Source: Acidobacteriota bacterium (GTDB taxonomy: Bacteria > Acidobacteriota > Terriglobia > Acidiferrales > UBA7541). Taken from it: a DNA stretch of 38,971 bases. The stretch is from positions 1 through 38,971 of the forward strand of contig QHYN01000220.1 of assembly GCA_003224145.1 (NCBI GenBank). Direction: 5' to 3'. The translations under genes were made by a program, and so were the position numbers. The notes under the pieces are model-generated. The model worked only from the letters and a program-made list of their open reading frames with translations. It was not told the origin of the DNA and ran no database searches. Shown here piece after piece: positions 12,740 through 31,260 of the stretch; position 1 is the stretch's first letter, and the number at the start of each line of letters is the position of its first letter.

Positions 12740-12769
12740 TCTGTAATTAATTGTAGATACATGGGTTAG

Positions 12770-12827: not shown

Positions 12828-12860
12828 AGGGGGCCTGATGAATATAGGGAGCGCAGAACA

Positions 12861-13430: not shown

Positions 13431-13502
13431 GTCCGGCCGGGACTAGGCTTTTTACCTTTTCCATTTTCTGACCGCATTGACAGCGAAGAAAGGAGTAGCA
13501 CT

Positions 13503-14576: not shown

Positions 14577-14608
14577 GGCCTTATGCGACGGAGATTTCAG
14601 AACTGACA

Positions 14609-16141: not shown

Positions 16142-16145
16142 GTCT

Positions 16146-16937
16146 GTGGGCGAGAACCAGAGTGTCCTGACGATTGCGGCAGGGCTTGGGCCGGCCGCCA
16201 AGGAGGAGACGTGGATCACGGCATCTGATTTTTCCCGGAGCACGACCGCGCACATGCTCCGCGACCTGAAACTCGCGCTTGAGCCACTGCGCCATGCGGG
16301 AATTCAACGGATGCTGGACATCGGCTGCGGCTTTGGCGGGATCGCACGATTCGTCGGCATGCGTCTCGGAGTGAATGACATTCACGGTTTAGATAGAGAC
16401 TTGAGCGTACTGGCAGAGGCACGTGCGAAAGGCGTGGCGGCCGAACTGGCGGACTTGGCAGCGGAGCCGCTGCCGCACTCGGATGGGGCGTTCGATCTCG
16501 TGACGTCATTCGGGATGCTCGACTACTTTGCGGATTTTGACGTCGTGATCCAAGAAATGCAGCGCGTCTTAAGGTCGGGTGGTTACGCCATGGTCTCTTT
16601 GCCCAATCTCGCAGGCTGGCAGAATCGGATCGCCTTGCTCCTCGGGTATCAGCCGCGAGACGTGGAAGTTTCGCAGAAATTCGTGGTGGGCGTGCACCCG
16701 CACTACCGCGCGCGGAAGCCTTCGCCGGTGGGCCACATTCACACCGCAACGACAACGGCATTCTGGGAGCTCATGGAGAGACACGGTTTCGAAACGCTGT
16801 GGGTGACCGGAGCACAGCCGGTGCCGCAGGGATGCGGCTGGCTGGTCGCGCGGCTGGACGGGATTCTCTCCCGCAGCGCGAGTCTCGCGCGCCGCTTCTT
16901 CTACCTCGGAAGGAAGAGGCCGGAGGAAAGCGCATGA
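16146..16937 (+). CDS. Class I SAM-dependent methyltransferase
   Basis: 263 residues from the GTG at 16146, with GGAGG about eight bases upstream inside the end of the preceding gene. Motif I is MLDIGCGFGGIARF (about 56-69), the acidic end of strand 2 is GLDRD, motif II reads FDLVTSFGMLDYF, and the post-motif is LRSGGYAMVSLPNLAGW. This is the Methyltransf_11/23-like pattern. Following the priming transferase directly, it may methylate a sugar of the repeat unit, but the acceptor cannot be told from sequence. Confidence 0.85.
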   Translation: MGENQSVLTIAAGLGPAAKEETWITASDFSRSTTAHMLRDLKLALEPLRHAGIQRMLDIGCGFGGIARFVGMRLGVNDIHGLDRDLSVLAEARAKGVAAELADLAAEPLPHSDGAFDLVTSFGMLDYFADFDVVIQEMQRVLRSGGYAMVSLPNLAGWQNRIALLLGYQPRDVEVSQKFVVGVHPHYRARKPSPVGHIHTATTTAFWELMERHGFETLWVTGAQPVPQGCGWLVARLDGILSRSASLARRFFYLGRKRPEESA

Positions 16938-17021
16938 ACGGTTCCCTGGCAGCGCAATCTGCGGAGTCTGTCGGTGGCTATCGGCAGCGAGCAGAAACAG
17001 CTATCGCGATCGGAGGTGGCA

Positions 17022-17723
17022 ATGCAGATCTTCTTAGATTCCGCCAAGTATGACGAAATCGAAAACTGGTTGACGCAAGGTGTCGTCGACGGCGTCACAA
17101 CCAACCCCAGCATCATGCTCAAAGATAGTGTCTATGATTGCGAGGCTGGGGCCAGGCGGCTCTGCCGCTTGCTCGGCTCCCGTCCTCTCAGCGTTGAGGT
17201 TACCAGCAACAATCCTCGCGAGATGCTAGAACAGGGCCGGACGTTCGCAGGGTGGGCTGAAAACGTCGTGGTCAAGATTCCGATCGTGAATGAGCGCGGA
17301 GAATCCTGCCTGGGCGTCATCCACGGCTTAAGCGGCGAGGGCATTGCGGTCAACACGACGGCCATTCTCTCTTTCAACCAGGCCATTCTCGCAGTCAAGG
17401 CAGGCGCTGCCTACGTCAGCATCTTCGCGGGCCGCATCGCGGACGAAGGAAACGACGCGGCGGTGGTGATCCGAAACGTGCGTCAGTGGCTCGATCAGTG
17501 GAGTTACGCAGCGAAGATCATTGTGGGCAGCATCCGCGCAGTCATCGATATTCAGCAGGCAGCTCTGGCGGGAGCACACATCGTGACGATCCCGCCGCAG
17601 TTCTTACCCAAAATGGTGGACCACAAATACACGCGGGATACCGTCCGGCAATTCAATGAAGATGCGCGCAAGGCACAGGCGCAGATCGCGCATGTTCAGG
17701 CAGCCGCAGCCGTGCATGGCTAG
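17022..17723 (+). CDS. TalC/Fsa-family transaldolase
   Basis: 233 residues from the ATG at 17022, with a strong GGAGG seven bases upstream; an ATG 16 codons earlier is less likely. The family pattern is plain: MQIFLDSAKYDEIE, GVTTNPSIM, NVVVKIPIV with the Schiff-base Lys85 (same number as in E. coli FsaA), then AGAAYVSIFAGRIADEG. In that last motif Phe135 lines up with Tyr131 of FsaA and with Phe178 of transaldolase B. Phe marks transaldolases, Tyr marks fructose-6-phosphate aldolase, so a transaldolase is favoured. It would interconvert fructose 6-phosphate plus erythrose 4-phosphate with sedoheptulose 7-phosphate plus glyceraldehyde 3-phosphate in the cytosol. Such a gene is unusual inside a polysaccharide locus; see the heptose genes at 28.7-31.3 kb. 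Confidence 0.9.
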   Translation: MQIFLDSAKYDEIENWLTQGVVDGVTTNPSIMLKDSVYDCEAGARRLCRLLGSRPLSVEVTSNNPREMLEQGRTFAGWAENVVVKIPIVNERGESCLGVIHGLSGEGIAVNTTAILSFNQAILAVKAGAAYVSIFAGRIADEGNDAAVVIRNVRQWLDQWSYAAKIIVGSIRAVIDIQQAALAGAHIVTIPPQFLPKMVDHKYTRDTVRQFNEDARKAQAQIAHVQAAAAVHG

Positions 17724-17748
17724 GGATGGCCGAAGCGAAGGATAGGGA

Positions 17749-19074
17749 ATGGCGGTAGCGGGTAGAGCCACGGAATTGCTATGGACGCGGGCGAAGGTCC
17801 TGGTTTGGGGGCGGCTCTCGGCCTTGTCGCTCGTGGACCAGGGGCTCATCTCGGGCAGCGGGTTCATTCTCAATCTTCTCCTCGCGCGCTGGTTGCCCGC
17901 TGAGACCTACGGCGCATTTGCTGTAGCTTTCGCGGTGTTTCTTTTCGCCTCCGGCTTTCACAACGTGCTGCTGCTCGAGCCCATGTCCGTGTTCGGCCCG
18001 GCAAGTTATGCAGACCGCTTGCGTGACTATTTCCAGTCTCAGTTGAAGGTTCACGCAGTGCTAGCGGGCACACTCTCGGGGCTCATCCTGCTATCGGCAG
18101 TGGCGCTGAAGGCCTACGGATTGCGGACGCCCCTAACCGGGGCGCTCATGGGGAGCGGGATCGCCTTACCATTCCTGCTGCTTCTTTGGCTTGCCCGGAG
18201 GATGTGCTATGTAGTCCAAAGCCCGTTCTCCGCAGTGATGGGAAGCGTTTTCTACTTCGTCGCGATGGTTGCCGGCCTTGTGGCTCTCCGGCAACGTGGA
18301 ATGCTCAACCCTTTCACGGCCTTTCTCTTGGTGGCGGCAGCCAGCACGCTGGCTTCTGCGCTGCTCCTCTATCAGCACGGGATTTTCGGACCCGGAAGCG
18401 AACCACAGGGTTCGCTGGGGTGGAGAGAGGTGATCCGGGAGAATTGGGGGTACGGGCGCTGGTTGGTCGCCAGCACGGCTTTGTACGCCGCATGCAGCCA
18501 GACGCAAACGTTCCTGACAGCCGGGCTGCTGGGGCTGGGTTTGGCTGGTGTTCTGCGCGCCATGCAGATGCCCTCGCTGGTGATGACACAGATGGTGGTA
18601 GCCAGTGGTTTGCTGGTGATGCCGAGCATGTCCCGCGATTTCGGCCTGGGACGGATTGCTCATCTGCGGAGAAAGGCCACCCTGACCTCGGCTGCCCTCG
18701 CGGCGATCGCTCTAGTTTATGCCGCCGCCCTGTTCGTGGCAGCGTCCCCCATCGAGCGGATTCTCTTCGGCGGCAAATACGCTTCCTTTGCCTGGCTGAT
18801 CCCGCTGCTGGGTCTCATGCCTCTTTGCACCGGATTCGCGACGGGCTACTCGATGGCGCTGCGGGCTTCGCAGAGGCCGCAGTTTGATTTACTGGCCAAC
18901 AGTGTGTCCGCGCCAGTGGCGGTCGTCTCCGCTGTGCTCTTCATTCGTTGGTGGGGCATTGGGGGCGCGGCGGCGAGCACGGTGCTGGGCTTTGCCGCAT
19001 ACGCCGCTGTCTTTTTCCTTTCTTACCGCGCGCGGCCGTGGGATTGCCGAGGAATGGCGCGCAATGGCGATTGA
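17749..19074 (+). CDS. Wzx-like polysaccharide flippase (MOP superfamily)
   Basis: 441 residues with about twelve hydrophobic helices spread along the whole length, the usual size for MOP-superfamily oligosaccharide flippases. The start at 17749 places LVDQGLISGSGFILNLLLAR near residue 27, a typical first helix for this family. It would move the undecaprenyl-linked repeat unit across the inner membrane. The first codons overlap GGCGGTAGCG (17751-17760), which resembles the ops pause element. The stop overlaps the start of the next gene by 11 bases. Confidence 0.88.
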   Translation: MAVAGRATELLWTRAKVLVWGRLSALSLVDQGLISGSGFILNLLLARWLPAETYGAFAVAFAVFLFASGFHNVLLLEPMSVFGPASYADRLRDYFQSQLKVHAVLAGTLSGLILLSAVALKAYGLRTPLTGALMGSGIALPFLLLLWLARRMCYVVQSPFSAVMGSVFYFVAMVAGLVALRQRGMLNPFTAFLLVAAASTLASALLLYQHGIFGPGSEPQGSLGWREVIRENWGYGRWLVASTALYAACSQTQTFLTAGLLGLGLAGVLRAMQMPSLVMTQMVVASGLLVMPSMSRDFGLGRIAHLRRKATLTSAALAAIALVYAAALFVAASPIERILFGGKYASFAWLIPLLGLMPLCTGFATGYSMALRASQRPQFDLLANSVSAPVAVVSAVLFIRWWGIGGAAASTVLGFAAYAAVFFLSYRARPWDCRGMARNGD

Positions 19075-19966
19075 CCGAGGAACGGCGCGACTACTTCTTG
19101 AGGAGCACCGCCAGCGGCCTTTCGATGGCTCGGTTCTTCAGCTTGGGCGGCAGACGGTCCTGTTCAGCGAAAGGCAGCTTCGTGCCTGGGCCGAAGTGAC
19201 GCCCGTCGTCTTGCACTGCATCCCTAGTGAGCGGCTAGGCGGCATGCGCGACGGCAACGGGGCGACGGGTAGGAGGCTGGACGATGAGGTGTTCTTCAAG
19301 TTGCTGGGCTTTGGGGAGGTGCAGAGCTGCGACGTGAGTCCCTACGAAGGCGCCACGCTGCTGGCGGATTTGAACCAGCCTGTCACTCCGGCCATGCAAG
19401 GGCGCTTTGACATGATCTTCAACGGTGGCACCCTGGAGCACATCTTCGACATGCGGGCCGCGCTGGCCAATGTTCATAAGATGCTTAGGGTGGGCGGTCG
19501 CGCGATTCACATCGCCCCGTCTTCCAACACGATAGATCACGGGTTCTATTCTATCTCACCAACCTTGTTCGACGACTACTATAGCGCCAACCATTATTCC
19601 ATCCTGACGCTGTACTTATTTGAGTGCCACAGCTGGACCGGAGAGTGGGCGATCTACGATTACGGAAGGGGGCGGATGGACAGCCGGTTGGGCCGGACCT
19701 GCAGCGCAAAGATGGCCGGCGTGTATTGTGTGGTGCAGAAGACGGCGGGCTCAACTGCAGACGCCGTTCCGGCGCAGACTGATTTCGCCCGCCTTTGGCA
19801 GTCGGGTCGAGAAGACGGGGGTTCGGCACGCATGACCCCGCTCAAGGAAGCGGTCACGGAGCATTTTCCGGATGCGGCAGAAATGGTGTTCTGGACTCGA
19901 GGCCTAGTTTGGCGGCAACCAAGCGTGCGACGCAGGTCCATGCCCCCGCTCGTTCACAGATACTAA
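19064..19966 (+). CDS. SAM-dependent methyltransferase-like protein
   Basis: 300 residues from the ATG at 19064, which overlaps the flippase stop by 11 bases and has GAGGAA nine bases upstream; the longer in-frame extension would run through the flippase gene. The middle reads CDVSPYEGATLLADLN, then FDMIFNGGTLEHIFDMRAAL and MLRVGGRAIHIAPSSN, the second half of a class I methyltransferase fold. The glycine-rich motif I is not obvious, so SAM binding is uncertain. Proteins of this kind occur in sugar-modification clusters. The C-terminal third is less conserved and Arg-rich. Confidence 0.65.
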   Translation: MAIDRGTARLLLEEHRQRPFDGSVLQLGRQTVLFSERQLRAWAEVTPVVLHCIPSERLGGMRDGNGATGRRLDDEVFFKLLGFGEVQSCDVSPYEGATLLADLNQPVTPAMQGRFDMIFNGGTLEHIFDMRAALANVHKMLRVGGRAIHIAPSSNTIDHGFYSISPTLFDDYYSANHYSILTLYLFECHSWTGEWAIYDYGRGRMDSRLGRTCSAKMAGVYCVVQKTAGSTADAVPAQTDFARLWQSGREDGGSARMTPLKEAVTEHFPDAAEMVFWTRGLVWRQPSVRRRSMPPLVHRY

Positions 19967-19997
19967 GGGGGCGTTCCAACCCGTTGAGGTTAAGGAC

Positions 19998-20801
19998 ATG
20001 GGTCTCCTGAGTTTTATGCGAGAAGTAAGCGGCGCTCCCTGCTACAGACGCTCGCTGAGCGCCACAGCCAAGTATGGCTATGCCAAATGGGTGCTATCTC
20101 GATTCCGAGAGAATGATCCTGAGAAATTCCTGCAGGGACTCGGAGTCCGGGCCAGTCGCACATTGAGGGGCTATGAGCAATGGCGGCCAGAGTTGGAACG
20201 GGTAGTCCACGACGTCCAGCAGGCGTCGGACGGTCAGGGCGGGGTCAGCTCAGCAGATGGCTTGGTGCTTTACGGGTTGGTGCGGGCGCTTGAGCCCGAT
20301 TATGTGGTTGAGACGGGCGTGGCTGCGGGGGTTTCTACATCTTATATCGGCGCGGGCCTGATTGATAACGGCCATGGCCACCTGTTTTCAATCGAACTGC
20401 CTCCCGCGGAGGAACTCGCGCTCGTATGCGCGGACGGATCCCGGTACATCTGGCAGGACCGGGGGGTTGGCTGGGCGATTCCGGCGAGCATCCGAGCGGG
20501 CTTGGGAGGCCGACATCGCTTGATTCTCCGTGACGTTCGAAAGGCCCTCGCGGAGCTACTGCGGGAGATCCCCTATGTTGACATCTTTTTCCACGACGAC
20601 CTTCATGCGCCCGAACACATGCTTTGGGAGTACTCGCTCGTTTGGCCTCGGATTCGGCCTGGGGGCGTCCTAGTCTCAGACGACTCCAACTACGGCTGGA
20701 TTCAGTTCTGCAGGGAATTGCGACGAGGGGAAGAGGGATTCCCGAATCTTGACAGGCTTACGGCCCTCCGAAAGGGCCTCCGAACAGCCCCCAGCGAATA
20801 G
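19998..20801 (+). CDS. Class I methyltransferase-like protein (Methyltransf_24 type)
   Basis: 267 residues; GAGG lies about nine bases before the ATG. DYVVETGVAAGVSTSYIGAG (about 101-120) is motif I with the acidic Glu. FSIELPP follows at the strand 2 acidic position. VDIFFHDDLH (about 194-203) gives a metal-like His-Asp-Asp cluster as in Methyltransf_24/CmcI-type enzymes, and GGVLVSDDSNYG follows. The N-terminal ~80 residues are extra. An O-methyltransferase acting on a glycan is likely; the substrate is unknown. Confidence 0.75.
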   Translation: MGLLSFMREVSGAPCYRRSLSATAKYGYAKWVLSRFRENDPEKFLQGLGVRASRTLRGYEQWRPELERVVHDVQQASDGQGGVSSADGLVLYGLVRALEPDYVVETGVAAGVSTSYIGAGLIDNGHGHLFSIELPPAEELALVCADGSRYIWQDRGVGWAIPASIRAGLGGRHRLILRDVRKALAELLREIPYVDIFFHDDLHAPEHMLWEYSLVWPRIRPGGVLVSDDSNYGWIQFCRELRRGEEGFPNLDRLTALRKGLRTAPSE

Positions 20802-20885
20802 GGTGTTCAACCGGCAGATCTCTAGTGCTGCGCTCGGGTGCCATGCTGGGTGGTTGCGGGATACGGGCCGAAGGGTGCTGCCCTC

Positions 20886-22082
20886 ATGAGGATAGCGATT
20901 TTCGACTACGCAGTCGCCCCAACGAACGCAATCGGGCGCTGTCATTTGTACATGCTTGAAGCATTGCAAAGGGAACACGATTTCACAGTGTTCTCAATTC
21001 GTTTCGAGAATCCTAACCCTGAGCTTATCCGCTGGGTTCGGATTCCCGCGCCGACGCGCCCCGGAGCCCTCGTCTTCCTGGCTTTCCATTTCCTTGCGCC
21101 TCTTTATTACTGGTGGCACCGGCTTCGTCAGGGTACTCGATTCGACCTCGTACAGCTCGTGGGGAGTGACATGAGCTTCGGGGACGTCTCTTATGCACAA
21201 TTCTGTAACCGCACCTACTTGGTTCGCCACTGGAAACAATCTGGGGCGCGCGGTTTGCGGAGGGTCTTCTGCTGGCTTAGCCACTGGCTTCGCGCTTTGG
21301 CGGAGCCGTCGGTCTACCGGCGTGCCCAACACATCATTGTTCCATCCCTCGGCTTGGCGAGAGAGCTGCGAGCGGAATATCCATTCGTTGCCGACAAGAT
21401 TTATGTCTTGCCGAACCCGGTAGATACCGGGCAAATGCGCCGCCCATGCGATTTCGACCGGAAAAGGCTACGCGAGCAACTCGGTCTAGCGCCGGAAGAC
21501 GTGGCACTTGCATTCGTTGCACTTGGGCACTACGAGCGAAAAGGGCTGCCGCTTCTCATGCAGGCTCTGGCGCAGCTGCGGGATCGGCACGCAAAACTCG
21601 TCATTGTGGGAGGCCGAGCGGGTCTCGTAGAGACATACCGGCAGCGCGGAGAGCGTATGGGGCTACACGGCCGAATGGTCTTCACCGGAATGCAGCGGGA
21701 TGTGCGTCCGTATCTTTGGGCCGCCGACGGATTCGCGTTCCCGTCACATTACGAAGCCTTCCCCCTAGTGGCGCTAGAGGCAGCGGCGGCAGCGCTGCCC
21801 TTGGTTGTTACACCGTTGAACGGCGTGGAAGAGTTCCTTATCCACGGCGGGAACGGGATTCTAGTGGAGCGGTCGGTGGAGGGGGTCTGCAGAGGGCTTT
21901 CCCGCCTTCTCGAAATGTCGCCGCAAGCGCGACGCGAGATGGGGGCGCACGCCCAGCGGGACGTGGCGCGGTACGACACATCGCACTTCATTGCCGGATG
22001 GCGAAAGTTCTACGGCGAGTTGCGCGAAGCGCAAGGCCAGGTGTGCACTGAGGCTTGCGGGGAGCGGGTCGGGCGGCAATGA
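20886..22082 (+). CDS. GT4 family glycosyltransferase
   Basis: 398 residues from the ATG at 20886 (MRIAIFDYAVAPTNAIG). GT-B fold: the C-terminal domain has VLPNPVDTG, ALGHYERKGLPLLMQAL, VIVGGRAGL, and the EX7E motif in FPSHYEAFPLVALEA, which binds the nucleotide sugar. It would add a sugar to the lipid-linked repeat unit at the cytoplasmic face. The stop overlaps the next start in ATGA, suggesting translational coupling with the polymerase gene. Confidence 0.88.
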   Translation: MRIAIFDYAVAPTNAIGRCHLYMLEALQREHDFTVFSIRFENPNPELIRWVRIPAPTRPGALVFLAFHFLAPLYYWWHRLRQGTRFDLVQLVGSDMSFGDVSYAQFCNRTYLVRHWKQSGARGLRRVFCWLSHWLRALAEPSVYRRAQHIIVPSLGLARELRAEYPFVADKIYVLPNPVDTGQMRRPCDFDRKRLREQLGLAPEDVALAFVALGHYERKGLPLLMQALAQLRDRHAKLVIVGGRAGLVETYRQRGERMGLHGRMVFTGMQRDVRPYLWAADGFAFPSHYEAFPLVALEAAAAALPLVVTPLNGVEEFLIHGGNGILVERSVEGVCRGLSRLLEMSPQARREMGAHAQRDVARYDTSHFIAGWRKFYGELREAQGQVCTEACGERVGRQ

Positions 22083-23464
22083 CGACGAACGACCTGTTGG
22101 CCGGCGCTCTCCGCGAGGTCTACCCGATTACGCTGACCCTTTTCTGGATTTTCGCGCTCGGGGTCCTTTTTCTGCGCCCCCGCTGGGCTCTTCTGAGTCT
22201 ACTCCTGGGGGCTAACGTGAACGTCATCACACCTGGGTTTTTGTCAGCCACGTCGGTGGGATGGCAAAACGGCGTGCAAACGCTGGTGCTGCCGACCGTC
22301 CTCCTGCTGCGCCTGACGGGCTTCAAAGTGCCTAGGCTCCGGCTGGGGTTCCCCGCCATGGCATGGGCAGCCCTGACGCTCTACGCTGCTGTCTCGACCC
22401 TATGGAGCCCATTCAAGCTGTCGGGTGTGAAGATGATCGGGTTCCTGGCGGGGTGGTTTATCTTGTATCTGGTTTTCCATCTGGCGTGGGAACGCAGGAT
22501 TCTCGACGAGGGCTTGCTGATTGCGGCGCTGTGGTGCAGCTTGGGCCTCGCGTGCATTCAGACCTACGTCTTGGGCAGCCCCGAGCAAGTCGTGACCCAT
22601 CAGTTCACGTCCTTCACCGCCGCGGAGTCATTCGCCATATTTCTCAGTTCGATCCTTGCCCTTTTGCTCTTCTCGACGGGCCGACCTTGGCTGCATGGCG
22701 TGAGCCTTGCAGCATGCGTGCTCGGTGTCATCCTCGCCGGGGACCGCACCGCGCTGATTGGGCTCGCGTCCCTGCTGTTTGTATGGCTTTTGCATAGGAA
22801 GAAGGCAATTGGGACGAGATATGGTGTGCGGTTTGCGGCTGTGGTTCCCCCGTTCGTCGTACTCTTGCTCCTTTTTTTGGGCTTTCGTGCGGGTATGGCC
22901 TGGGGGATGCCCGAAAGCAGGCTAAATGAGCTCATGCAACTCGGGTCGAATTCGGTGGCGACCCTCCAGGATATAGGCACGGTCGCCTTTCGGCTAGACA
23001 TGTACGAGAGCACCCTGTCTGAGGTCTCCGGGCGTGCCCTTCCGGCGTTGGTCTTCGGGTCGGGGACGGCTAGTGGGGGAACGCTTTCCTTTGGGGGCCA
23101 GGAGCAATATGTGATTGGGATGGACCCCAACCGGACGATTCACGACGAATTTCTGAGGGCGCTTTACGAGTGGGGGCTGATTGGCCTCGGCTTGGGGTTG
23201 GCCCTAATTTTTCATCTTGCCGGCCGCTCCTGGCACTTGGCGGTGCGCGAGGGTTCCCTTCCCGCGATGGCGGTCGTAGGGATGCTGCCCGCGATGTTGC
23301 TCCTCCTTGTCGACGGCAACCCTTTGTCAAGCCCCGCCGAGACGATGGGCATGGGGTTGCTACTCGTCCTCACATACGGGTTCTCGGCGGGCCCGCAGGT
23401 AGCGAAGATGCGGGCGCGGGCGACGTTGGCGAAGTCATCGCAGAAACGGTCGGTTGCGGAATGA
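22079..23464 (+). CDS. Wzy-like O-antigen/exopolysaccharide polymerase or ligase
   Basis: 461 residues from the ATG at 22079 in an ATGA overlap. Ten to twelve hydrophobic helices, with a larger loop at roughly residues 290-370 containing FGSGTASGGTLSFGGQ and NRTIHDEFLRALYEWGLIGL. That H-x-x-(Y/F)-L-x-x-L-Y-E-x-G-L pattern is typical of the Wzy_C/O-antigen ligase family. It would polymerise flipped repeat units in the periplasm. With the flippase, chain-length protein and SLBB exporter also present, a Wzy-dependent pathway is the natural reading. A ligase role cannot be excluded from sequence. Confidence 0.85.
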   Translation: MTTNDLLAGALREVYPITLTLFWIFALGVLFLRPRWALLSLLLGANVNVITPGFLSATSVGWQNGVQTLVLPTVLLLRLTGFKVPRLRLGFPAMAWAALTLYAAVSTLWSPFKLSGVKMIGFLAGWFILYLVFHLAWERRILDEGLLIAALWCSLGLACIQTYVLGSPEQVVTHQFTSFTAAESFAIFLSSILALLLFSTGRPWLHGVSLAACVLGVILAGDRTALIGLASLLFVWLLHRKKAIGTRYGVRFAAVVPPFVVLLLLFLGFRAGMAWGMPESRLNELMQLGSNSVATLQDIGTVAFRLDMYESTLSEVSGRALPALVFGSGTASGGTLSFGGQEQYVIGMDPNRTIHDEFLRALYEWGLIGLGLGLALIFHLAGRSWHLAVREGSLPAMAVVGMLPAMLLLLVDGNPLSSPAETMGMGLLLVLTYGFSAGPQVAKMRARATLAKSSQKRSVAE

Positions 23465-24669
23465 CGCCAGCCGCATCGCCACAGGGGAGAGTGGTCGCGG
23501 CTGGTTCCTCCAGTCGCGTTCTCGCTGCGCGCGTAGCACTGCTGGGTGGTAGGATGCTGGCCCCTTACGAGCGACCGTGGCTGGAGGCCCTCCAGGAGCG
23601 TGTCGAGTATCTGCGCGTCTTTGTAGCGGAGTGGCCCAATCGGCGCCTTCCCTGGCGGAAGGATTTCGGGAAGTTAAGGGTCACGGTGTTGAACGCGCTT
23701 GTAGTGAGGGTGGTGCACAGACATCCGTCGGGATTTGCCGACCCGGACGAGAGGCTGATTCCGTATAACGCCGTCTGCCAGCTCCGTCGGATTCGACCCG
23801 ACGTCATCATCGCCGCGGAACTTGGGGCGGCGACGCTTCAGGCTATTGGGTATGCGCGGTTGAGGCCCTCGGCAAGGGTGGTTATTGTCGTGGGGCTCTC
23901 CGAGAGAACAGAGGCCGGCCGTGGGGTTCTTCGCAGGCTTCTGCGCAGGTTTCTGCTGCGGCGCGCAGATGCGATCATCACGATCGGCTCAGGCTCGGTG
24001 AGGTACCTGGAACGGTTCGGGGTGGGCCGGAAAGCAATTTTTGTCATGCCGCGCACTACAGACATGCGACCTTTCCTCGATTTGCCGCTGAGCCGCGATG
24101 AGGAGGGTGCGGGCCGGTTGTTCTTCCCAGGCCAGTTCATACAGCGCAAGGGACTGCTGCCGTTCCTCGATGTGCTCTCTCGCTGGGCGACAGCACACCG
24201 TGATCGATGCGTGCAATTCTGGCTCCTTGGTGAAGGGCCCGAGCGAATGGCTCTTGAACATTACCCCACTTCGCCTAACCTGAGCCTCCGCCTCTGGCCG
24301 GGTGTGCCGTACGACGAGTTGCCCCGCTTCTACGGGCAGGCGGGCATACTGGCATTCCCAACTCTGGCCGATGAGTGGGGCCTTGTCGTGAACGAGGCCC
24401 TTGCCTCGGGCGTGCCGGTGCTGGGGAGTGAGCACAGCCAAGCGGTCGTAGAGCTAGTGCACGATGGGGAGACTGGGTGGAGGTTTAACCCGGAGAAGCC
24501 AGACGATACGTACGAGGCAATTGACCGGGCTCTATCGACCCCTCGCGAGCGGTTGGCGGCGATGCGTGCCGCGGCTCGGAGAAGCGTCGAGACGGTCACC
24601 CCCGAGCTTGCGGCAGACCAAGTCGTGGAGGCCCTGCACTTTGCTCTTTCGGGGAAACGTGGCGGCTGA
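23461..24669 (+). CDS. GT4 family glycosyltransferase
   Basis: 402 residues from the ATG at 23461, in an ATGA overlap with the polymerase stop; an open extension upstream lies inside the polymerase gene and is rejected. The C-terminal GT-B half has FPGQFIQRKGLLPFLDVL, WLLGEGPERM and FPTLADEWGLVVNEALASG. In that last motif the first Glu of EX7E is Asp, as judged by alignment with the E(P/G)WGLVVNEA pattern. The N-terminal acceptor domain is divergent and Arg-rich. It probably adds one sugar to the repeat unit. Confidence 0.85.
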   Translation: MTPAASPQGRVVAAGSSSRVLAARVALLGGRMLAPYERPWLEALQERVEYLRVFVAEWPNRRLPWRKDFGKLRVTVLNALVVRVVHRHPSGFADPDERLIPYNAVCQLRRIRPDVIIAAELGAATLQAIGYARLRPSARVVIVVGLSERTEAGRGVLRRLLRRFLLRRADAIITIGSGSVRYLERFGVGRKAIFVMPRTTDMRPFLDLPLSRDEEGAGRLFFPGQFIQRKGLLPFLDVLSRWATAHRDRCVQFWLLGEGPERMALEHYPTSPNLSLRLWPGVPYDELPRFYGQAGILAFPTLADEWGLVVNEALASGVPVLGSEHSQAVVELVHDGETGWRFNPEKPDDTYEAIDRALSTPRERLAAMRAAARRSVETVTPELAADQVVEALHFALSGKRGG

Positions 24670-24764
24670 GCTGCCCGACTCTGACATCCTGGGGAACCGA
24701 GATGGTGGTCCCCCCTAGGGCAAGGTGACGTAGGGGCAGTGAAAAGGGGGTCGAGAGGTTTGCT

Positions 24765-25430
24765 TTGAGGACTGACGCAACGCTCAGGTGGGTCAAAGGC
24801 CCAAAGGTCCTGGACATAGGGTGCACGGGGCACGTCGTAGAAATCGGTTCGCCCTATTGGTTGCACGGTCGCTTGCGAGAGAACTTTCCTTCGGTGACCG
24901 GAGTCGATATCTCTGCTGAGAATGTCGAGACTCTGAGAAAGCACGGCTTGGGTGACGTGTATGTGGAGAGTGCTGAATCCTTTGACCTCTCGCAGAAATT
25001 CGACACGATCGTCGCTGGGGAGCTAATTGAGCATCTTTCAAACCCAGGCCTGTTTCTGCAGCAAGCGCGCCGACACTTGGGCGACCAGGGAAGGCTTGTA
25101 CTTACTACACCGAACCCGTTCTCTTTGGCGTACCTGCTTTACGCGATTCTCAAGTTTCCGCGGACGTGCCAGAACCCACAGCACGCCTGCTGGTTCTGCC
25201 CGCGGACAATGATCGAGCTCGCTGAGAGATTCGGGTTCAAAGTGGTGTATTTCGAACTGATAGACGACTACCGCTCGGATGATCCTTCATTCGTATATCG
25301 GCTATTCGGCAAGTTGATGATGATCTTTAGCCCGGTCATTCCGAAGCAGATGAAAAAGACCATGCTATTCGTGCTGGCGCCGAACGCGAATGGCCACAGC
25401 GTGTTGAAGCGTCGACTGCCAGACGAATGA
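24765..25430 (+). CDS. Class I SAM-dependent methyltransferase
   Basis: 221 residues from a TTG at 24765, with GAGG six bases upstream; no ATG fits. Motif I is KVLDIGCTGHVVEIG, a variant with TGH after GC. The acidic strand 2 end is GVDISAENVE, then FDTIVAGELIEHLSNPG and LGDQGRLVLTTPNPFSLAYL. CWFCPRTMIELAERFGF follows, typical of Methyltransf_23-type proteins in glycan clusters. Codons such as AGG, ATA and TTG look more frequent here than in the gene that follows. The stop overlaps the next ATG. Confidence 0.82.
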   Translation: MRTDATLRWVKGPKVLDIGCTGHVVEIGSPYWLHGRLRENFPSVTGVDISAENVETLRKHGLGDVYVESAESFDLSQKFDTIVAGELIEHLSNPGLFLQQARRHLGDQGRLVLTTPNPFSLAYLLYAILKFPRTCQNPQHACWFCPRTMIELAERFGFKVVYFELIDDYRSDDPSFVYRLFGKLMMIFSPVIPKQMKKTMLFVLAPNANGHSVLKRRLPDE

Positions 25431-26638
25431 AAATCCTGTACATCTACAACCTCTACCAGCAGCCGGGCGGGGAGAACCACTGGGTGGAGAGCGAACCGCA
25501 GTTGATGGAAGCGCACGGCCACGCGGTGGTCCTCTACAAACGCGACAACAGCGAGATCCGGGACTTCTCTTGGTGGCAGAAGGGCGCGCTGCTGTGGCAG
25601 GCGGGCTGGTCGCGGCAATCCTTTCGGGAAGTCCGCTCGTTACTTCGACGCGAGCGGCCGGACGTGGCGCACGTGTACAACACACTGGCGCTGGTGACGC
25701 CGTCGGTCTATTACGCCTGCCGGGATGAAGGCGTGCCCATCGTGCAGACGCTTTACAACTACCGGCTGGTTTGCCCGGCGGGTAGCCTGCTCCGCAAAGG
25801 GCGAATTTGTGAGGAATGTATCGACCATTCGCTCTGGCGCAGCGTGCGCTATGGATGCTACCGAAACTCGCGCGTGCAGACGGCTGCGGTGGCCGGGATG
25901 CTTTACCGGCATCGGCGGCGCGCGACGTGGTCACAAATGATCGACGCCTATCTGGTTCCCACCGAGTTCATGCGGCGAAAACTGATCGAAGGCGGGTTGC
26001 CTGCGGACAAGATCGTGGTCAAGCCCAATTTTCACGAGCCTGACGCGGGACTGCGAGAGGCCTCGGACGGCTCGGCACTTTATGTCGGCCGCTTGACGGA
26101 GGAAAAAGGTTTGCGAGTTCTGGTGGCGGCCTGGAAGCAGATGAAGAGCCCGCCACGGCTGCGCCTCATCGGGGACGGGCCGCTCCGGGAGGAACTGGAA
26201 CGAGCGGCAGGCGTTTCGCGAGGTGGCATCGAGGTGCTGGGTCAGCGCAGCCAAGCGGAAACAATGGAATACCTGAAAAAGGCTGCGTTGGTCGTTCTGC
26301 CCTCCGCGTGGTACGAGGGATTTCCCCACGTCATTCTGGAGGCTTACGCCTGCGGCATCCCGATACTCGCGAGCCGCATCGGAACCCTGGCGGACGTGAT
26401 CGAGGACGGAGTGACCGGGCTGCTTGCGGAACCAGGAGACCCGGCGGAGCTGGCGAAAAAAGTACGCTGGATCATCGAGAATGAATCCGCAGCGCGGCAA
26501 ATCGGCTTGAACGGCCGAAGGGCGTACGAAACGCTGTACACCGCGGAGCGGAACTACCTGCACCTTATGGCCATCTACCAGCGTGCGATCGAGACTAGAC
26601 TTGTCAGCATCTGCAGCCAAGTAGCCAGCCAGGCGTGA
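25427..26638 (+). CDS. GT4 family glycosyltransferase
   Basis: 403 residues starting in an ATGA overlap. The N-terminal domain opens with ILYIYNLYQQPGGENHWVES; the PGG(A/E) loop is typical of GT4 enzymes. A Cys-rich insert (RLVCPAGSLLRKGRICEEC, about 107-125) resembles the zinc-ribbon-like segment seen in some GT4 transferases. The C-terminal half has ALYVGRLTEEKGLRVL, LRLIGDGPLREEL and LPSAWYEGFPHVILEAYACG with an intact EX7E. It would extend the lipid-linked repeat unit. A 202-base gap follows. Confidence 0.9.
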   Translation: MKILYIYNLYQQPGGENHWVESEPQLMEAHGHAVVLYKRDNSEIRDFSWWQKGALLWQAGWSRQSFREVRSLLRRERPDVAHVYNTLALVTPSVYYACRDEGVPIVQTLYNYRLVCPAGSLLRKGRICEECIDHSLWRSVRYGCYRNSRVQTAAVAGMLYRHRRRATWSQMIDAYLVPTEFMRRKLIEGGLPADKIVVKPNFHEPDAGLREASDGSALYVGRLTEEKGLRVLVAAWKQMKSPPRLRLIGDGPLREELERAAGVSRGGIEVLGQRSQAETMEYLKKAALVVLPSAWYEGFPHVILEAYACGIPILASRIGTLADVIEDGVTGLLAEPGDPAELAKKVRWIIENESAARQIGLNGRRAYETLYTAERNYLHLMAIYQRAIETRLVSICSQVASQA

Positions 26639-26840
26639 TCGAACCGCCCTCCCCGCGAGGAATCGGAAGAGCTCGCGGCGACACGCGCAGGACGGCTTTA
26701 GAATCCCCTCCTTTCTTCTCCCGAGCCGGCCCAAGCGCAGGCGGTCGAACGCGGAACGCCCACTCGCCAGCAGAAACACAATGGATTTTCAACAGTTGTC
26801 TTTTGGCAGGCCATCTCACTACAGAAGGAGTTCTCAAAAC

Positions 26841-27788
26841 ATGAAAGAACGCGTGCTGGTGACCGGCGCTGCAGGCTTTGTCGGCAGCAACCTGACGAAG
26901 CATCTGCTCGACCGTGGCTATTCGGTGATCGGGATCGACGACCTGAGCGCCGGAACGCAGGAAAACGTGGCTGACCGCGTCGAGTTCCACAGGAAAGATA
27001 TACGCGATCCGGTCATTTATCCGCTATTTGAAGGAGTGGACGCTGTCTTTCACTTGGCGGCGAAAAGCTGCCTGACCGATTGCCTGGACCATCCCGTCGA
27101 GGCAGCTAGTGTAAACGTGCTCGGAACAGTCAATGTTCTCGAAGCGGCCCGCAAGGGGGGCGTGCACAAATTTATCTATGCCGATACGTCGGCGGAGTAC
27201 GAAGGGATCGATTCCTTTCCCACCAAGGAAGACAAGATTCGCCCGATTGGCGTCTATGCGGCCAGCAAGCACGGCGGCGCAGCACTCTGCGAAAGCTACC
27301 GCGCGCTTTATGGGATGAACGTGACGCTTCTGCGCTACTTCAACGTCTATGGTCCCGCGCAGGACTGGCGGCGCGTCGTTCCCCCGGTCATGAGCGCGTT
27401 CATCATTCGCATGCTGCAGGGGGAACGGCCGATCATCTACGGAACCGGGGAAAAGCGGCGGGACTTCATTTATGTGGACGACGTCAACGACCTCCACTTG
27501 CTCGTCCTCGAAGACCCGCGATCAAACGGGAAGATCTTCAACGCCGGAACGGGAACGAATTACTCCATCAACGAAGTCTATGCGCTCATCGAAGGGATAC
27601 TCAAGACGGGGCTCCGACCCACTTACGAACCGGATCTGCCCGGGGAGGCTCAGATCACTCTTGCGGATACGAGCGAAGCAAAGGCGCTTGGGTGGAAGCC
27701 CAGGATCAGCATCCGCGAGGGCCTCGAGCGCTCAATCAGCTACATCGGAGAAAGAGTCTTGAAGCTCAAGCTGAAGCGAGCCGTCTAG
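26841..27788 (+). CDS. NAD-dependent epimerase/dehydratase (GalE-like SDR)
   Basis: 315 residues from the ATG at 26841, with GAAGGAG upstream; an ATG 20 codons earlier is weaker. Rossmann motif VLVTGAAGFVGSN, GIDDLSAGTQEN at the strand 2 acidic end, VFHLAAKS, catalytic Tyr139/Lys143 (VYAASKHGG), RYFNVYGPAQ, and RRDFIYVDDV. These mark extended SDRs that act on UDP- or GDP-sugars, usually as 4-epimerases. It follows a 202-base gap after the glycosyltransferase. It would supply an activated sugar for the repeat unit; the nucleotide and sugar are unknown. Confidence 0.88.
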   Translation: MKERVLVTGAAGFVGSNLTKHLLDRGYSVIGIDDLSAGTQENVADRVEFHRKDIRDPVIYPLFEGVDAVFHLAAKSCLTDCLDHPVEAASVNVLGTVNVLEAARKGGVHKFIYADTSAEYEGIDSFPTKEDKIRPIGVYAASKHGGAALCESYRALYGMNVTLLRYFNVYGPAQDWRRVVPPVMSAFIIRMLQGERPIIYGTGEKRRDFIYVDDVNDLHLLVLEDPRSNGKIFNAGTGTNYSINEVYALIEGILKTGLRPTYEPDLPGEAQITLADTSEAKALGWKPRISIREGLERSISYIGERVLKLKLKRAV

Positions 27789-27847
27789 CATCTCGTGATG
27801 CCCGTCTTGGTTGGCATCGCCGCTTCGCGAAAGCTCCTCCTCTCGTC

Positions 27848-28711
27848 ATGGATAGCCACACCGGCTCAACTGTTGTAGACGCGATCCCTGGCTCGCTGGC
27901 AAATCGGCAGTCCAGAGCGTGTTTTCACGTGCTTGGAGTGCGCGTGGATGCCGTGGACATACTGAAGGTCATCACGACGATGGAGCAGTGGATCTGTGAG
28001 GGTGACGGTTGTCATTTCATTGCTGTGACGGGCATGCACGGCGTGATGGAGGCGCAGCACAACCCAGGCTTTAAAGATGTTCTCAACGCGGCAGACCTGG
28101 TCGTGCCCGACGGGATGCCGCTGGTCTGGTTGGGCCGCGCTTATGGGCATGCGTTGAGGCGCCGGGTGTACGGGCCGGAATTGATGCTGGCCTTTTGCAA
28201 GCGAAGCACCGCCAACGCCTATCGGCATTTTTTCTATGGAGGAAAGCCGGGCGTAGCAAAGAAGTTGGCAGAAATCCTGGCCCAACGCTTCCCGGGAATC
28301 TCTGTAGCCGGTACTTACTCGCCAGCTTTCCGGCCGCTGACCGCGGAGGAGGACGAAAAAGTCGTGGCCTTGATTAACGCTGCTGCTGCAGATGTGGTCT
28401 GGGTGGGTCTGAGCACGCCCAAGCAGGAACGTTGGATGTCCGAGCATCGGAACTGCCTGCGCACGCCTGTGTTGGTGGGTGTCGGAGCGGCGTTTGACAT
28501 CAATTCGGGGGTGGCTCGCCAGGCCCCGCGTTGGATGCGTGAGAACGGGCTCGAGTGGCTCTTCCGACTGCTCCAGGAACCGCGACGCCTCTGGTGGCGC
28601 TACCTCGGTTATGGCTCCGAGTTCGTGTTCTCCGTGCTCTTGGACTCTTTGCCGTTCAAGACTCCCTTCGCAGGTAAATCAAGAGTTGACGGAGAAACCG
28701 GCCCGAAGTAG
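27848..28711 (+). CDS. WecB/TagA/CpsF-family glycosyltransferase (GT26)
   Basis: 287 residues from the ATG at 27848, which has no good ribosome-binding site; an alternative ATG at 27692 would overlap the epimerase gene. Family motifs: VTGMHGVMEAQHNPGFKDVL, ADLVVPDGMPLVWLGR, RRVYGPELMLAFC, FFYGGKPGVAKKLAEIL and VWVGLSTPKQERWMSEH. GT26 enzymes usually transfer N-acetylmannosamine(-uronate) or a related sugar to a lipid-linked acceptor at the membrane surface. The acceptor and donor are not readable here. The basic C-terminus may bind the membrane. Confidence 0.92.
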   Translation: MDSHTGSTVVDAIPGSLANRQSRACFHVLGVRVDAVDILKVITTMEQWICEGDGCHFIAVTGMHGVMEAQHNPGFKDVLNAADLVVPDGMPLVWLGRAYGHALRRRVYGPELMLAFCKRSTANAYRHFFYGGKPGVAKKLAEILAQRFPGISVAGTYSPAFRPLTAEEDEKVVALINAAAADVVWVGLSTPKQERWMSEHRNCLRTPVLVGVGAAFDINSGVARQAPRWMRENGLEWLFRLLQEPRRLWWRYLGYGSEFVFSVLLDSLPFKTPFAGKSRVDGETGPK

Positions 28712-28752
28712 GGACGATTTCTCGCTGCGGCCTTGAAGAGGAAAAGCAAGCC

Positions 28753-29823
28753 ATGATCATTACGCAAACACCATTCCGTATCACGTTGGGCGGTGGCGGA
28801 ACGGACTTGCCTTCTTTCTATCGCGAGCATGGGGGCTACATTTTGGCTGTCGCCATCGACAAGTATATGTACCTGAACGTGAATACACCGATTGTCGACG
28901 ATAAAATCCGCGTGAAATACAGCAAATCAGAGCTGGTTGACCACACCGATCAGGTGGAGCACACCCTCGCCCGCGAAGCGCTGCGGTATTTCGGTGTGAC
29001 TCGCGGAATCGAGATCGTCTCGCTGGCCGATATTCCCGCCGGCACCGGCCTCGGCTCATCCAGCGCCTATCTGGTTGGGTTGCTGAACGCCTTGCACGCG
29101 CTCACGCAGTGCCCCGCTGGTCCCCAGCGACTCGCTGAGGAAGCTTGCCGCATCGAGCTCGAAGTTCTCAAGAAACCAATCGGGAAGCAGGACCAGTACA
29201 TGGCCGCGTATGGCGGACTCACGGCGCTCGAGATCGCCCGCGACGGTCGTGTGCAGGTGAGGCGAGTAGCGATCGATGGGGAAGTGTTGGAAGCCCTCGA
29301 GCACAACGTGGTGATGTTTTATACACACGATACACGCGATGCGACCACGATCCTCAGCAAGCAGAATCACGGCGCAAACCGCAATGACCGGACTGTCCTT
29401 TCGGCCCTGCAGGAGATCAAGGACATCGGGCTTGAGATCGAAACCGCTGTCGCTGCCGGCGCCCTCCGCCGGTTTGGTGAATTGTTGGACGCGCATTGGC
29501 AAGCAAAAAAGCATCTGGCTGCGGGCGTGACGAATCCTCAGATTGATGCTTGGTATGATTTGGCCAAACGCAATGGTGCAATTGGCGGCAAGATCTCCGG
29601 CGCGGGCGGCGGTGGCTTCTTAACGCTGTATTGCGAGGAGAACAAGCCCCGGCTTCGCGAAGCCATGCGCGGCGCCGGGCTGAGGGAGCTGAACTTCCGC
29701 TTCGATTTTGAAGGGAGTAAGGTCATCTTCGATGTCGTTTCCCGCGATGGACGCCTGGCACACATCCAGCGTCAGAATGGTCAGGAAAACGGATTCGCTT
29801 TCGCAGCAAAGGTTTCAGCCTAG
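28753..29823 (+). CDS. hddA: GHMP kinase, D-glycero-D-manno-heptose 7-phosphate 1-kinase-like
   Basis: 356 residues; GAGGAAA lies about ten bases before the ATG. GHMP-kinase motifs in order: GGGGTDLPSFYREHGGYIL near the N-terminus, the ATP loop GTGLGSSSAYLVGLLNAL (about 97-114), KKPIGKQDQYMAAYGG, and the C-terminal KISGAGGGGFLTLYC. This is the HddA branch, which phosphorylates C1 of D-glycero-D-manno-heptose 7-phosphate. Galactokinase-like fucose kinases are the alternative. The GmhB- and GmhA-like genes next to it support the heptose reading. Confidence 0.85.
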   Translation: MIITQTPFRITLGGGGTDLPSFYREHGGYILAVAIDKYMYLNVNTPIVDDKIRVKYSKSELVDHTDQVEHTLAREALRYFGVTRGIEIVSLADIPAGTGLGSSSAYLVGLLNALHALTQCPAGPQRLAEEACRIELEVLKKPIGKQDQYMAAYGGLTALEIARDGRVQVRRVAIDGEVLEALEHNVVMFYTHDTRDATTILSKQNHGANRNDRTVLSALQEIKDIGLEIETAVAAGALRRFGELLDAHWQAKKHLAAGVTNPQIDAWYDLAKRNGAIGGKISGAGGGGFLTLYCEENKPRLREAMRGAGLRELNFRFDFEGSKVIFDVVSRDGRLAHIQRQNGQENGFAFAAKVSA

Positions 29824-29954
29824 CTCTCTATTCCACCCTTGTGCCCACTTGCCCGTCTTTAGGGATTCTGGGACCCGTTTACAGTTTTGACCCAAACGAC
29901 CATTTGAAAAATCCAAGGAAGTTACAGCCAACTCGTATTTGAGGTGCCCCGGAT

Positions 29955-30590
29955 ATGAAAGCCGTTTTGTTGGATCGCGACGGTGTTATTAACGCCCTCG
30001 TCTATCACGAGGATGCAGGGGTGATCGACTCGCCGTTCAGGGCCTCGCAGTTCAAGCTGCTTCCGGGTGTCCCAGAAGCGATCCGGCTGCTGAACGATAT
30101 GGGCTTGAAGGTTGCCGTTGTGTCGAACCAGCCGGGCATCGCCAAGGGGCACCTAAAGCCCGCAATGTTGAAGACGTTCGATCGCAGAATGCTTTCTGGA
30201 ATTCGCACGGCCGGTGGGCATATTGATCGGATCTATTACTGCCTGCATCATCCGGAGGCAAAAGTGCTCAAACTCCGGCAGCGCTGCCGTTGCCACAAGC
30301 CGGAGATTGGCCTGCTCGAGCAAGCAGCTGAGGATCTGCGGGTATCCCTCCTGGAATGCTACATGGTTGGAGACGGCATACCGGACCTGTTGGCTGGAGC
30401 GCGGGCCGGCTGCCGCACTATCTTCATCGGCCGCTGGAAATGTGAGGTCTGTCAGTTCACCGAGGCTCCGCATGTCCACGCGGCTCTCATAGCGGAGAGT
30501 CTCTGGGACGCTGCCCTTCTCATCCAAGCGGAAATGCGGGGAACGAGGCCCATTACTTCCTCCTACAAGTGCCTCTCTGCCCAAGCATGA
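29955..30590 (+). CDS. gmhB: HAD phosphatase, D-glycero-D-manno-heptose 1,7-bisphosphate 7-phosphatase-like
   Basis: 211 residues; GAGGTG about nine bases before the ATG. The HAD nucleophile motif LLDRDGVIN gives Asp7/Asp9, then VAVVSNQPGIAKG (motif II) and YMVGDGIPDLLAGARAG (motif IV). The zinc-binding insert typical of GmhB is complete: Cys96, His98, Cys111 and Cys113, in YYCLHHPEAK and RCRCHKPEIG. The C-terminal extension RWKCEVCQFTE adds a CxxC pair that E. coli GmhB lacks. It would remove the 7-phosphate after the HddA step. It is separated from HddA by 131 bases. Confidence 0.88.
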   Translation: MKAVLLDRDGVINALVYHEDAGVIDSPFRASQFKLLPGVPEAIRLLNDMGLKVAVVSNQPGIAKGHLKPAMLKTFDRRMLSGIRTAGGHIDRIYYCLHHPEAKVLKLRQRCRCHKPEIGLLEQAAEDLRVSLLECYMVGDGIPDLLAGARAGCRTIFIGRWKCEVCQFTEAPHVHAALIAESLWDAALLIQAEMRGTRPITSSYKCLSAQA

Positions 30591-30648
30591 CCTCTTGGTC
30601 CGAAGCTCGATAGTCTAATTTTCCCCTTGATTTGAGGAGACGGTTTGC

Positions 30649-31260
30649 ATGAACTACGTGGCACAGTACCTTCAAGAAGTAATCGAGATTGCGGGTCTGT
30701 TGGATCGCTCAGCCATCGAGCGAACCGCGGACCTGCTTCTTGAACTCCGCGAGCGAGGTGGCCGGCTGTTCCTCCTTGGGGTCGGCGGCGGAGCGGGTCA
30801 CGCCTCACACGCTGTCTGCGACTTCCGCAAAATCGCGCAGATCGAAGCCTACTCGTCCTCCGACAACGTCTCCGAGCTCACCGCCCGCGTCAACGATGAT
30901 GGCTGGGAGTCTTGTTACGCGAATTGGCTGCGTGGGTGCCACCTGAACAATGCCGACATGGTTTTTGCGCTCTCCGTCGGGGGCGGAGACGCCGCAAAAA
31001 ACATTAGCGCCAACCTCGTGCGAGCCCTTGAATATGCTTGCGAGGTTGGCGCGACGATTTGCGGTGTTGTCGGCCGCGACGGAGGTTACACTGCTCAGGT
31101 TGCAGATGCTTGCATTCTAGTCCCGGTCGTGAACCCCTCCACCATCACACCCCACACCGAATCCTTTCAAGCTCTGGTCTGGCATCTTCTGGTTTCCCAT
31201 CCGAAGCTGAAGGCTGCGGAAATGAAGTGGGAATCCGTGCAGTCCGCTGCAAGGGCTTAA
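30649..31260 (+). CDS. SIS-domain protein, divergent GmhA-like sedoheptulose 7-phosphate isomerase
   Basis: 203 residues; GAGGAG nine bases before the ATG. SIS fold pattern: GRLFLLGVGGGAGHASHAV, VSELTARVNDDGWES and VFALSVGGGDAAKN. Context (HddA- and GmhB-like genes upstream) points to sedoheptulose 7-phosphate isomerase. The metal ligands of E. coli GmhA (His61, Glu65, Gln172, His180) line up with His54, Asp58, Glu171 and His179. The phosphate-binding Ser residues of the GNGGS and STSGNS loops are mostly Gly or Asp here. The enzyme may therefore have altered specificity, or work with a different metal site. The true substrate remains unproven. It ends the rightward locus. Confidence 0.72.
   Translation: MNYVAQYLQEVIEIAGLLDRSAIERTADLLLELRERGGRLFLLGVGGGAGHASHAVCDFRKIAQIEAYSSSDNVSELTARVNDDGWESCYANWLRGCHLNNADMVFALSVGGGDAAKNISANLVRALEYACEVGATICGVVGRDGGYTAQVADACILVPVVNPSTITPHTESFQALVWHLLVSHPKLKAAEMKWESVQSAARA

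Follow-up and report, generated by a model that had tools for sequence, protein, structure and literature searches.

Why should a bacterial polysaccharide locus carry a transaldolase? The question is raised by a 38,971-bp stretch of an Acidobacteriota genome (GCA_003224145.1, contig QHYN01000220.1; contig C222 of genome G000, a 4.8-Mb draft), hereafter the window, in which Pfam and NCBIfam scans place a polysaccharide export and assembly locus at positions 7848–31260. Within it, on the + strand at 17022–17723, lies a gene for a TalC-type transaldolase of 233 residues, at a distance of 11.0 kb from an hddA-like gene. Descriptions of heptose pathways begin with sedoheptulose 7-phosphate taken from a pool in central metabolism, and the initial annotation had suggested that this locus may bring its own precursor enzyme for an exported heptose glycan. 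We consider it probable, at roughly 0.6, that the locus transaldolase is a dedicated paralogue that would feed sedoheptulose 7-phosphate into heptose activation. What the sequence shows directly is a transaldolase-type active site, membership of a clade linked to heptose-type cassettes, the order and joint occurrence of the genes, and a further transaldolase-family gene at another place in the genome.

Active site of the locus transaldolase

The window TalC, whose ATG at 17022 falls within a longer open reading frame (GTG 16974 to 17723), matches PF00923 with 155.7 bits (cut-off 27; E 2e-45), and its best PDB match is the Thermoplasma acidophilum transaldolase (3s0c, E 7e-37). We aligned the protein with FsaA, using the E. 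coli sequence identical to PDB 1l6w. The alignment pairs Lys85 with FsaA Lys85, Glu59 with Gln59, Thr113 with Thr109, Ser133 with Ala129, Phe135 with Tyr131, Arg138 with Arg134, Ser170 with Ser166 and Arg172 with Lys168, in agreement with the initial annotation, which had described a TalC-type protein with Lys85 and with Phe135 opposite Tyr131. Lys85, Asp6, Asn28, Thr113 and Ser170 are all present in the alignment with FsaA and the T. acidophilum enzyme, and where these two references differ, the window protein carries the transaldolase letters: Glu59, Ser133, Phe135 and Arg172. By its active-site residues the protein is thus predicted to be a transaldolase rather than a fructose-6-phosphate aldolase, and the residues support this assignment.

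The F178Y change in TalB reportedly creates aldolase activity, and it is correct that Phe at this site marks transaldolase; the mark is, however, common to all TalC rows examined. Phe at 135 is found in 62/62 TalC rows outside the clade described below as well as inside it, so that Phe135 alone does not discriminate, and we rejected it as a special mark of that clade.

That the protein instead acts like a fructose-6-phosphate aldolase, with free dihydroxyacetone as a substrate, is highly improbable. The best NCBIfam model for the window protein is indeed TIGR00875 (fructose-6-phosphate aldolase, fsa_talC_mipB), but its 160.5 bits fall short of the cut-off of 245.95. Against an aldolase, Glu59 and Phe135 replace Gln59 and Tyr131 of FsaA, with Glu and Phe at these sites in all 43 clade rows, and residue swaps in the water network of FsaA and transaldolase are reported to interconvert the two activities (PMC13259622, citing others).

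A clade with its own sequence marks

The window TalC scores 132.8 bits, below the cut-off of 281.95, against a second NCBIfam model, TIGR02134, whose family note concerns Coxiella and Staphylococcus. In a midpoint-drawn tree of 107 rows, for which the bootstrap was not fully settled and a long-branch warning was issued, the window clade (12 rows), the deltaproteobacterial L037 sequence and TIGR02134 (30 rows) separate together from all other TalC with support 100/100, and the window TalC falls within its own 12-row branch (94/90). Identical sequences were entered once, and the L074 talC, which is split over two frames, was omitted. The tree label TIG_hep was assigned beforehand and takes in L137, where no heptose gene was seen.

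The clade carries marks in the alignment as well as in the tree. The stretch from K85 to T109 (FsaA numbering) spans 29 residues in the clade (31 in L037) vs 25 in each of the 62 other rows, the difference being four extra residues (six in L037) following the catalytic-lysine strand, in 43/43 clade rows vs 0/62. Residue 130 is Ile, Leu or Val in 43/43 and Pro in 62/62, and residue 136 is Ala, Asn or Ser in 43/43 and Asp or Glu in 62/62. These clade-specific changes lie near the active site.

Among named contigs, most of those carrying the closest talC are acidobacterial. Two loci of the clade deserve separate mention. On a contig filed under Elusimicrobia (L033), talC is 74% and hddA 61% identical to the window's genes; this is either a transfer or a wrongly binned contig. 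At L074:7461–8131 the split talC follows gmhB, and either gene decay or an error in the sequence could explain it.

Co-occurrence with heptose-type genes

Among 95 genomes of the order, window-like TalC (E<=1e-45) is found in nine, and the TIGR02134 model at E<=1e-25 finds 13, namely the same nine plus G019, G020, G034 and G035, whose TalC proteins score over the TIGR02134 cut-off. Thirteen genomes have HddA matches of at least 330 bits (the next-best place scores 287 bits) and thirteen have GmhA matches of at least 97 bits (next-best 70 bits); at these thresholds, which were picked after inspecting the order-level lists, the TalC, HddA and GmhA sets are the identical 13 genomes. When each search is instead cut at its own E-value limit, HddA is present in 13/13 TalC-positive vs 17/82 TalC-negative genomes (p 3e-8), and GmhA in 13/13 vs 13/82 (p 3e-9), all P values here and below ignoring relatedness. 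Eleven of the 14 TalC genes share a contig with hddA, 1.2 to 15.6 kb apart; the exceptions are the G460 gene, with 580 bp left to the end of its contig, and the two G502 copies, one of them 5 bp short of a contig end. G502 carries two cassettes on other contigs.

The larger sample comprised 396 genomes of the phylum. A TIGR02134 protein over cut-off is present in 20, and 18 of these are accompanied, in flanking sequence reaching at most 1.5 kb, by a gene resembling gmhA, gmhB or hddA. Wider flanks for both misses raise the count to 19/20, one having hddA at 2.9 kb; for the remaining member, where the contig ends after 438 bp, no heptose gene was seen. We had written down beforehand the prediction that GmhA of at least 97 bits would mark the 22 TalC-positive genomes (the 20 plus G000 and G153), which span 13 families. 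This GmhA type was found in 21 of the 22 and in none of the 374 others (Fisher 5e-34). For 18 of the 22, a gmhA neighbor of talC was known before this test, which is therefore mainly one of specificity; what it adds is the 374 negatives and three more positives. In the single miss, G044, talC begins at base 483 of its contig. A threshold just below 80 bits would add two TalC-negative genomes: G413 (85.8 bits), where gmhA is cut by the contig end after hddC and hddA, and G168 (79.7 bits).

Is proximity to heptose genes a property of TalC in general? Such genes were found near 0/19 TalC outside the clade in the phylum, these controls being hand-picked from 99 non-clade places and read with flanks of 0.2 to 13 kb, mostly more than 5 kb per side. 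With 1.5-kb flanks the count was 0/8, and there was none among the order-level non-clade loci either. From other taxa, one of 37 non-clade TalC lies near a heptose-type gene, a 28%-identical SIS protein on an Aerococcaceae contig. The 0/19 and 1/37 controls led us to reject the notion that any TalC sits near heptose genes. The converse, that every hddA cassette has talC, was likewise rejected: 12 of the 25 order-level HddA places at or below 287 bits were fetched (L107–L118, L113 covering only 5.5 kb), and 0/12 have talC.

The co-occurrence of the TalC clade with hddA, gmhA and gmhB is strong and clade-specific. The idea of the initial annotation, which had been staked on co-occurrence with heptose genes, survived the survey in both samples (13 = 13 = 13 of 95; 21/22 vs 0/374).

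Gene order and plasmids

Beyond co-occurrence, the genes are often directly adjacent. In G034, G035, G019 and G020 they run hddA-hddC-gmhA-gmhB-talC with gaps near zero, and the same tandem is found on plasmids of Rhizobium jaguaris and Rhizobium sp. CB3060. The order is hddA-gmhA-gmhB-talC in G037 and G153, whereas two contigs from deltaproteobacteria (L037 and L074) show epimerase-gmhA-gmhB-talC. On Lawsonia plasmid 3 the annotation gives an SIS protein, an HAD-IIIA hydrolase and a transaldolase, and a galactokinase-type kinase and a nucleotidyltransferase follow about 5 kb on. GmhA-GmhB and GmhB-GmhA fusion reading frames, in opposite orders, occur in G034 and on G502:C14 (L103:8948–10111, L120:8173–9423). 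The cassette genes are more dispersed in the window, as they are in its closest relatives.

Of 98 plasmid records with a TIGR02134-type match, six were opened, and three of the six have heptose-type genes beside the transaldolase. When plasmids were searched by tblastn with the window TalC, the best 20 of 130 rows were Firmicutes only, at no more than 42% identity. On the Streptomyces plasmid p3211-1 (L155), the genes flanking a TIGR02134-type transaldolase encode a lactone oxidase and a hexitol phosphatase, with no heptose genes, so that the family is met there in another setting.

A second transaldolase-family gene in the carriers

Every one of the 35 clade-carrying genomes searched holds a further PF00923 match, which in G315 consists of a partial protein and a fragment only. 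In the window genome this further match extends over 351 residues and is of the tal_mycobact type (299.6 bits, cut-off 233.75). The locus talC as the sole transaldolase of the cell was accordingly rejected; the presence of another PF00923 protein in every carrier searched fits a dedicated copy.

It is also conceivable, though we judge it quite improbable, that the locus protein is no more than a back-up housekeeping transaldolase, whose association with the polysaccharide locus is accidental or which serves to remove surplus sedoheptulose 7-phosphate. The TIGR02134-type relatives without nearby heptose genes on the Streptomyces, Ligilactobacillus and Treponema plasmids would suit such an enzyme. 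The exact co-occurrence, the tight gene order and the phylum test speak against it, as does the other PF00923 protein in 35/35 carriers, and chance linkage fails to explain the 0/19 and 1/37 obtained for other TalC.

Partner enzymes and the proposed pathway

The initial annotation had placed HddA-, GmhB- and GmhA-like genes 11 kb downstream of talC, and all three were confirmed there, in the same co-directional run of polysaccharide genes, so that a GHMP kinase, an HAD-IIIA phosphatase and an SIS isomerase are present together in the locus. The HddA-like sugar-phosphate kinase (28753–29823, +; PF00288/PF08544) has PDB 3k85 as a match (E 1e-41) and NF049969 (HddA) as its best NCBIfam model, with 159 bits vs a cut-off of 600. 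The GmhB-like phosphatase (29955–30590, +) reaches 136 bits against PRK08942 (cut-off 178) and is over the cut-off for the TIGR01656 domain. The GmhA-like isomerase (30649–31260, +) reaches 45 bits against TIGR00441 (cut-off 209) and 23.7 bits against Pfam SIS_2 (cut-off 27), and matches PDB 1tk9 with E 5e-9.

On the dedicated-paralogue reading, the direction of the reaction, the acceptor, the product sugar and the presence of that product in the glycan are what we infer. TalC would, through a Schiff base on Lys85, transfer a dihydroxyacetone unit from fructose 6-phosphate to erythrose 4-phosphate and so make sedoheptulose 7-phosphate. This would be converted by the GmhA-like isomerase to a heptose 7-phosphate and thereby pulled into heptose activation; the HddA-like kinase would add the 1-phosphate, and the GmhB-like phosphatase would take off the 7-phosphate. 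A nucleotidyltransferase, hddC in many relatives and not found in the window locus, would then activate the sugar for the exported polysaccharide.

The isomerase deviates from E. coli GmhA in one conspicuous place. In the alignment its loop reads SVGGGDAAKNIS where the E. coli enzyme has STSGNS, which we take, from work on E. coli GmhA, to be the phosphate-binding loop. TalC-linked isomerases have SVGGG or SVHGG plus 4 to 9 extra residues in 36/36 rows vs 0/11 distinct unlinked ones (of 16 unlinked rows, five are second copies of the same genes). The phylum hits agree: the insertion is present in 20 TalC-linked isomerases, largely genes already counted, and is absent from seven of eight further full-length unlinked or second-copy rows. 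The eighth is that of G168 (L241), which has a loop-insertion isomerase of a second kind and a 36%-identical hddA, without talC in the 20 kb read; G168 is a true exception to the pairing of TalC with the loop insertion. At the positions of E. coli GmhA His61, Glu65, Gln172 and His180, the window isomerase aligns H, D, E and H; a zinc site is given as H61/E65/Q175/H183 for N. gonorrhoeae GmhA (PMC5387315).

Transaldolase can form octulose, and the altered loop bears on a further explanation, namely that TalC makes a different ketose phosphate (e.g. octulose 8-phosphate, with ribose 5-phosphate as the acceptor) and that the sugar activated by the cassette is not D-glycero-D-manno-heptose, TalC being needed as such a ketose is not a normal pool metabolite. 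We regard this as unlikely, although it accounts for several observations: the extra TalC residues and the changed residues 130 and 136 (43/43 vs 0/62), the isomerase loop insertion of 4–9 residues (36/36 vs 0/11), and the lack of talC in the canonical-loop cassettes looked at, which it would explain. It is opposed by the HddA-like and GmhB-like proteins, which match heptose enzymes best among named families, and by G168, with its loop insertion and hddA-like gene but no talC. A wider proposal, likewise doubtful and if anything a little more so, is that the TalC clade and the loop-insertion isomerase together make up a pathway of their own, disseminated by horizontal transfer and leading to an activated sugar other than ordinary glycero-manno-heptose, in which TalC would build de novo a non-standard (e.g. 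eight-carbon) ketose phosphate that the altered isomerase would accept.

Several points weigh against the dedicated supply of sedoheptulose 7-phosphate that we favor: (i) cells with transketolase and another transaldolase are already able to make this compound; (ii) the window HddA-, GmhB- and GmhA-like proteins are all under their NCBIfam equivalog cut-offs, and the names hold at family level only; (iii) the phosphate loop of the isomerase is changed, and its substrate could therefore differ from sedoheptulose 7-phosphate; (iv) a whole-genome search with one hddC type gave no match on the window contig; (v) the talC of G502:C216 has no heptose gene in flanks of 18.9 kb and 4.7 kb; and (vi) three of the six opened plasmids (Streptomyces, Ligilactobacillus and Treponema) have no heptose genes within 5–7 kb. 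The suggestion of a locus with its own precursor enzyme for an exported heptose glycan therefore stands as regards the TalC residues and the cassette co-occurrence, and is weakened by the missing hddC match and the altered isomerase loop.

In the window genome, matches to the hddC search are found only on C47 (33% identical, the best), C254 and C39 (both weaker and partial), and the C47 nucleotidyltransferase may supply the activation step for the window locus. On that contig (G000:C47:10403–12167; L118) a second HddA-like gene (39%) adjoins the nucleotidyltransferase and an epimerase, without talC in the 20 kb read.

Other genes of the locus

The called genes from 11316 to 31260 are on the + strand throughout, with intergenic gaps of −19 to 142 bp, a few start positions in this run having been set by eye and being approximate. 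The locus encodes Wza-like, Wzz-like and NusG-like proteins, sugar epimerases, an initiating sugar transferase, methyltransferases, glycosyltransferases and a WecG-type transferase. It opens with a Wza-like polysaccharide export protein (7848–11159, +; Poly_export, SLBB), followed by a Wzz/GNVR-type chain-length protein (11316–12725, +; GNVR just over and Wzz just under cut-off) and a NusG-like protein (12789–13430, +; PF02357, E 3e-20). The last, beside the Wzz-like gene, is probably an operon-specific antiterminator; relatives of it (58–60%) also adjoin a Wzz-like gene in G009 (L078) and G502:C216 (L034).

An NAD-dependent sugar epimerase (13503–14576, +; PF01370) and a polyprenyl-phosphate sugar transferase of the Bac_transf type (14612–16141, +, start approximate, reading frame from 14450; PF02397) precede talC. 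Immediately after it, the gene at 17749–19074 (+) is possibly a Wzx-like flippase, judging by its position and hydrophobic sequence, with matches to 0 Pfam families. The gene at 22079–23464 (+) is possibly a Wzy-like repeat-unit polymerase (TIGR04370, 18 bits, below the cut-off of 40). NCBIfam scans assign GT4-type glycosyltransferases to 20886–22082 (+) and 23446–24669 (+), and a GT4-like candidate at 25427–26638 (+) was recognized by eye from its sequence. Ahead of the heptose-type genes lie an NAD-dependent sugar-nucleotide epimerase/dehydratase (26781–27788, +; PF01370), 54–59%-identical relatives of which adjoin gmhA or talC in loci L037, L074 and L123, and a WecG/TagA/CpsF-type glycosyltransferase (27842–28711, +, start approximate; TIGR00696 over cut-off). 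Upstream of the polysaccharide genes, at 837–2513, there is a carbamoyltransferase with Carbam_trans N and C domains.

Comparison with known systems

RefSeq names single cassette genes by family only (transaldolase, SIS protein). The initial annotation knew of no description of this arrangement, and in the open-access literature searched we likewise found none in which a cassette for heptose or polysaccharide includes a transaldolase. Transaldolase and transketolase genes are said to tend to cluster with other carbohydrate genes in PMC5702140, a paper from which the word heptose is absent. Nor did the open-access papers searched contain the link between the TalC clade, the loop-insertion isomerase and heptose-type cassettes; the TIGR02134 family itself already existed. 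A cassette with its own transaldolase and a matching altered isomerase suggests that the polysaccharide locus may itself encode the supply or the identity of the precursor. The pairing is broadly distributed: it occurs in 13 families within the phylum sample, on two plasmids of Rhizobium and one of Lawsonia, and on two deltaproteobacterial contigs. If the non-heptose route were true, a higher-carbon sugar not yet described would be present in the coats of many bacteria.

The nucleotide-heptose (GDP-heptose) pathway, which starts at sedoheptulose 7-phosphate (PMC10680097), has the same enzyme classes, in many relatives assembled in one cassette. The cassette described here differs in including a transaldolase and an isomerase with an inserted phosphate loop and, in the window, in HddA-, GmhB- and GmhA-like proteins that score under equivalog cut-offs on a contig where no hddC was found. 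E. coli FsaA (1l6w) belongs to the same superfamily and shares the Lys85 Schiff base, but has Gln59, Tyr131, Ala129 and Lys168 where the window TalC has Glu, Phe, Ser and Arg. Non-clade TalC/MipB proteins, of the TIGR00875 type and including the T. acidophilum transaldolase (3s0c), are of the same family with the same catalytic residues, whereas they lack the extra residues, have Pro130 and Asp or Glu136, and are near heptose genes in none of the 19 wide-flank cases. TIGR02134 (transald_staph) groups with the window clade, and the two share the extra residues as well as the altered positions 130 and 136; the window TalC differs in its score (133 bits vs 282) and in its own 12-row branch (94/90). 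With 19 of the 20 over-cut-off phylum members near heptose-type genes, the pairing gives TIGR02134 a testable role.

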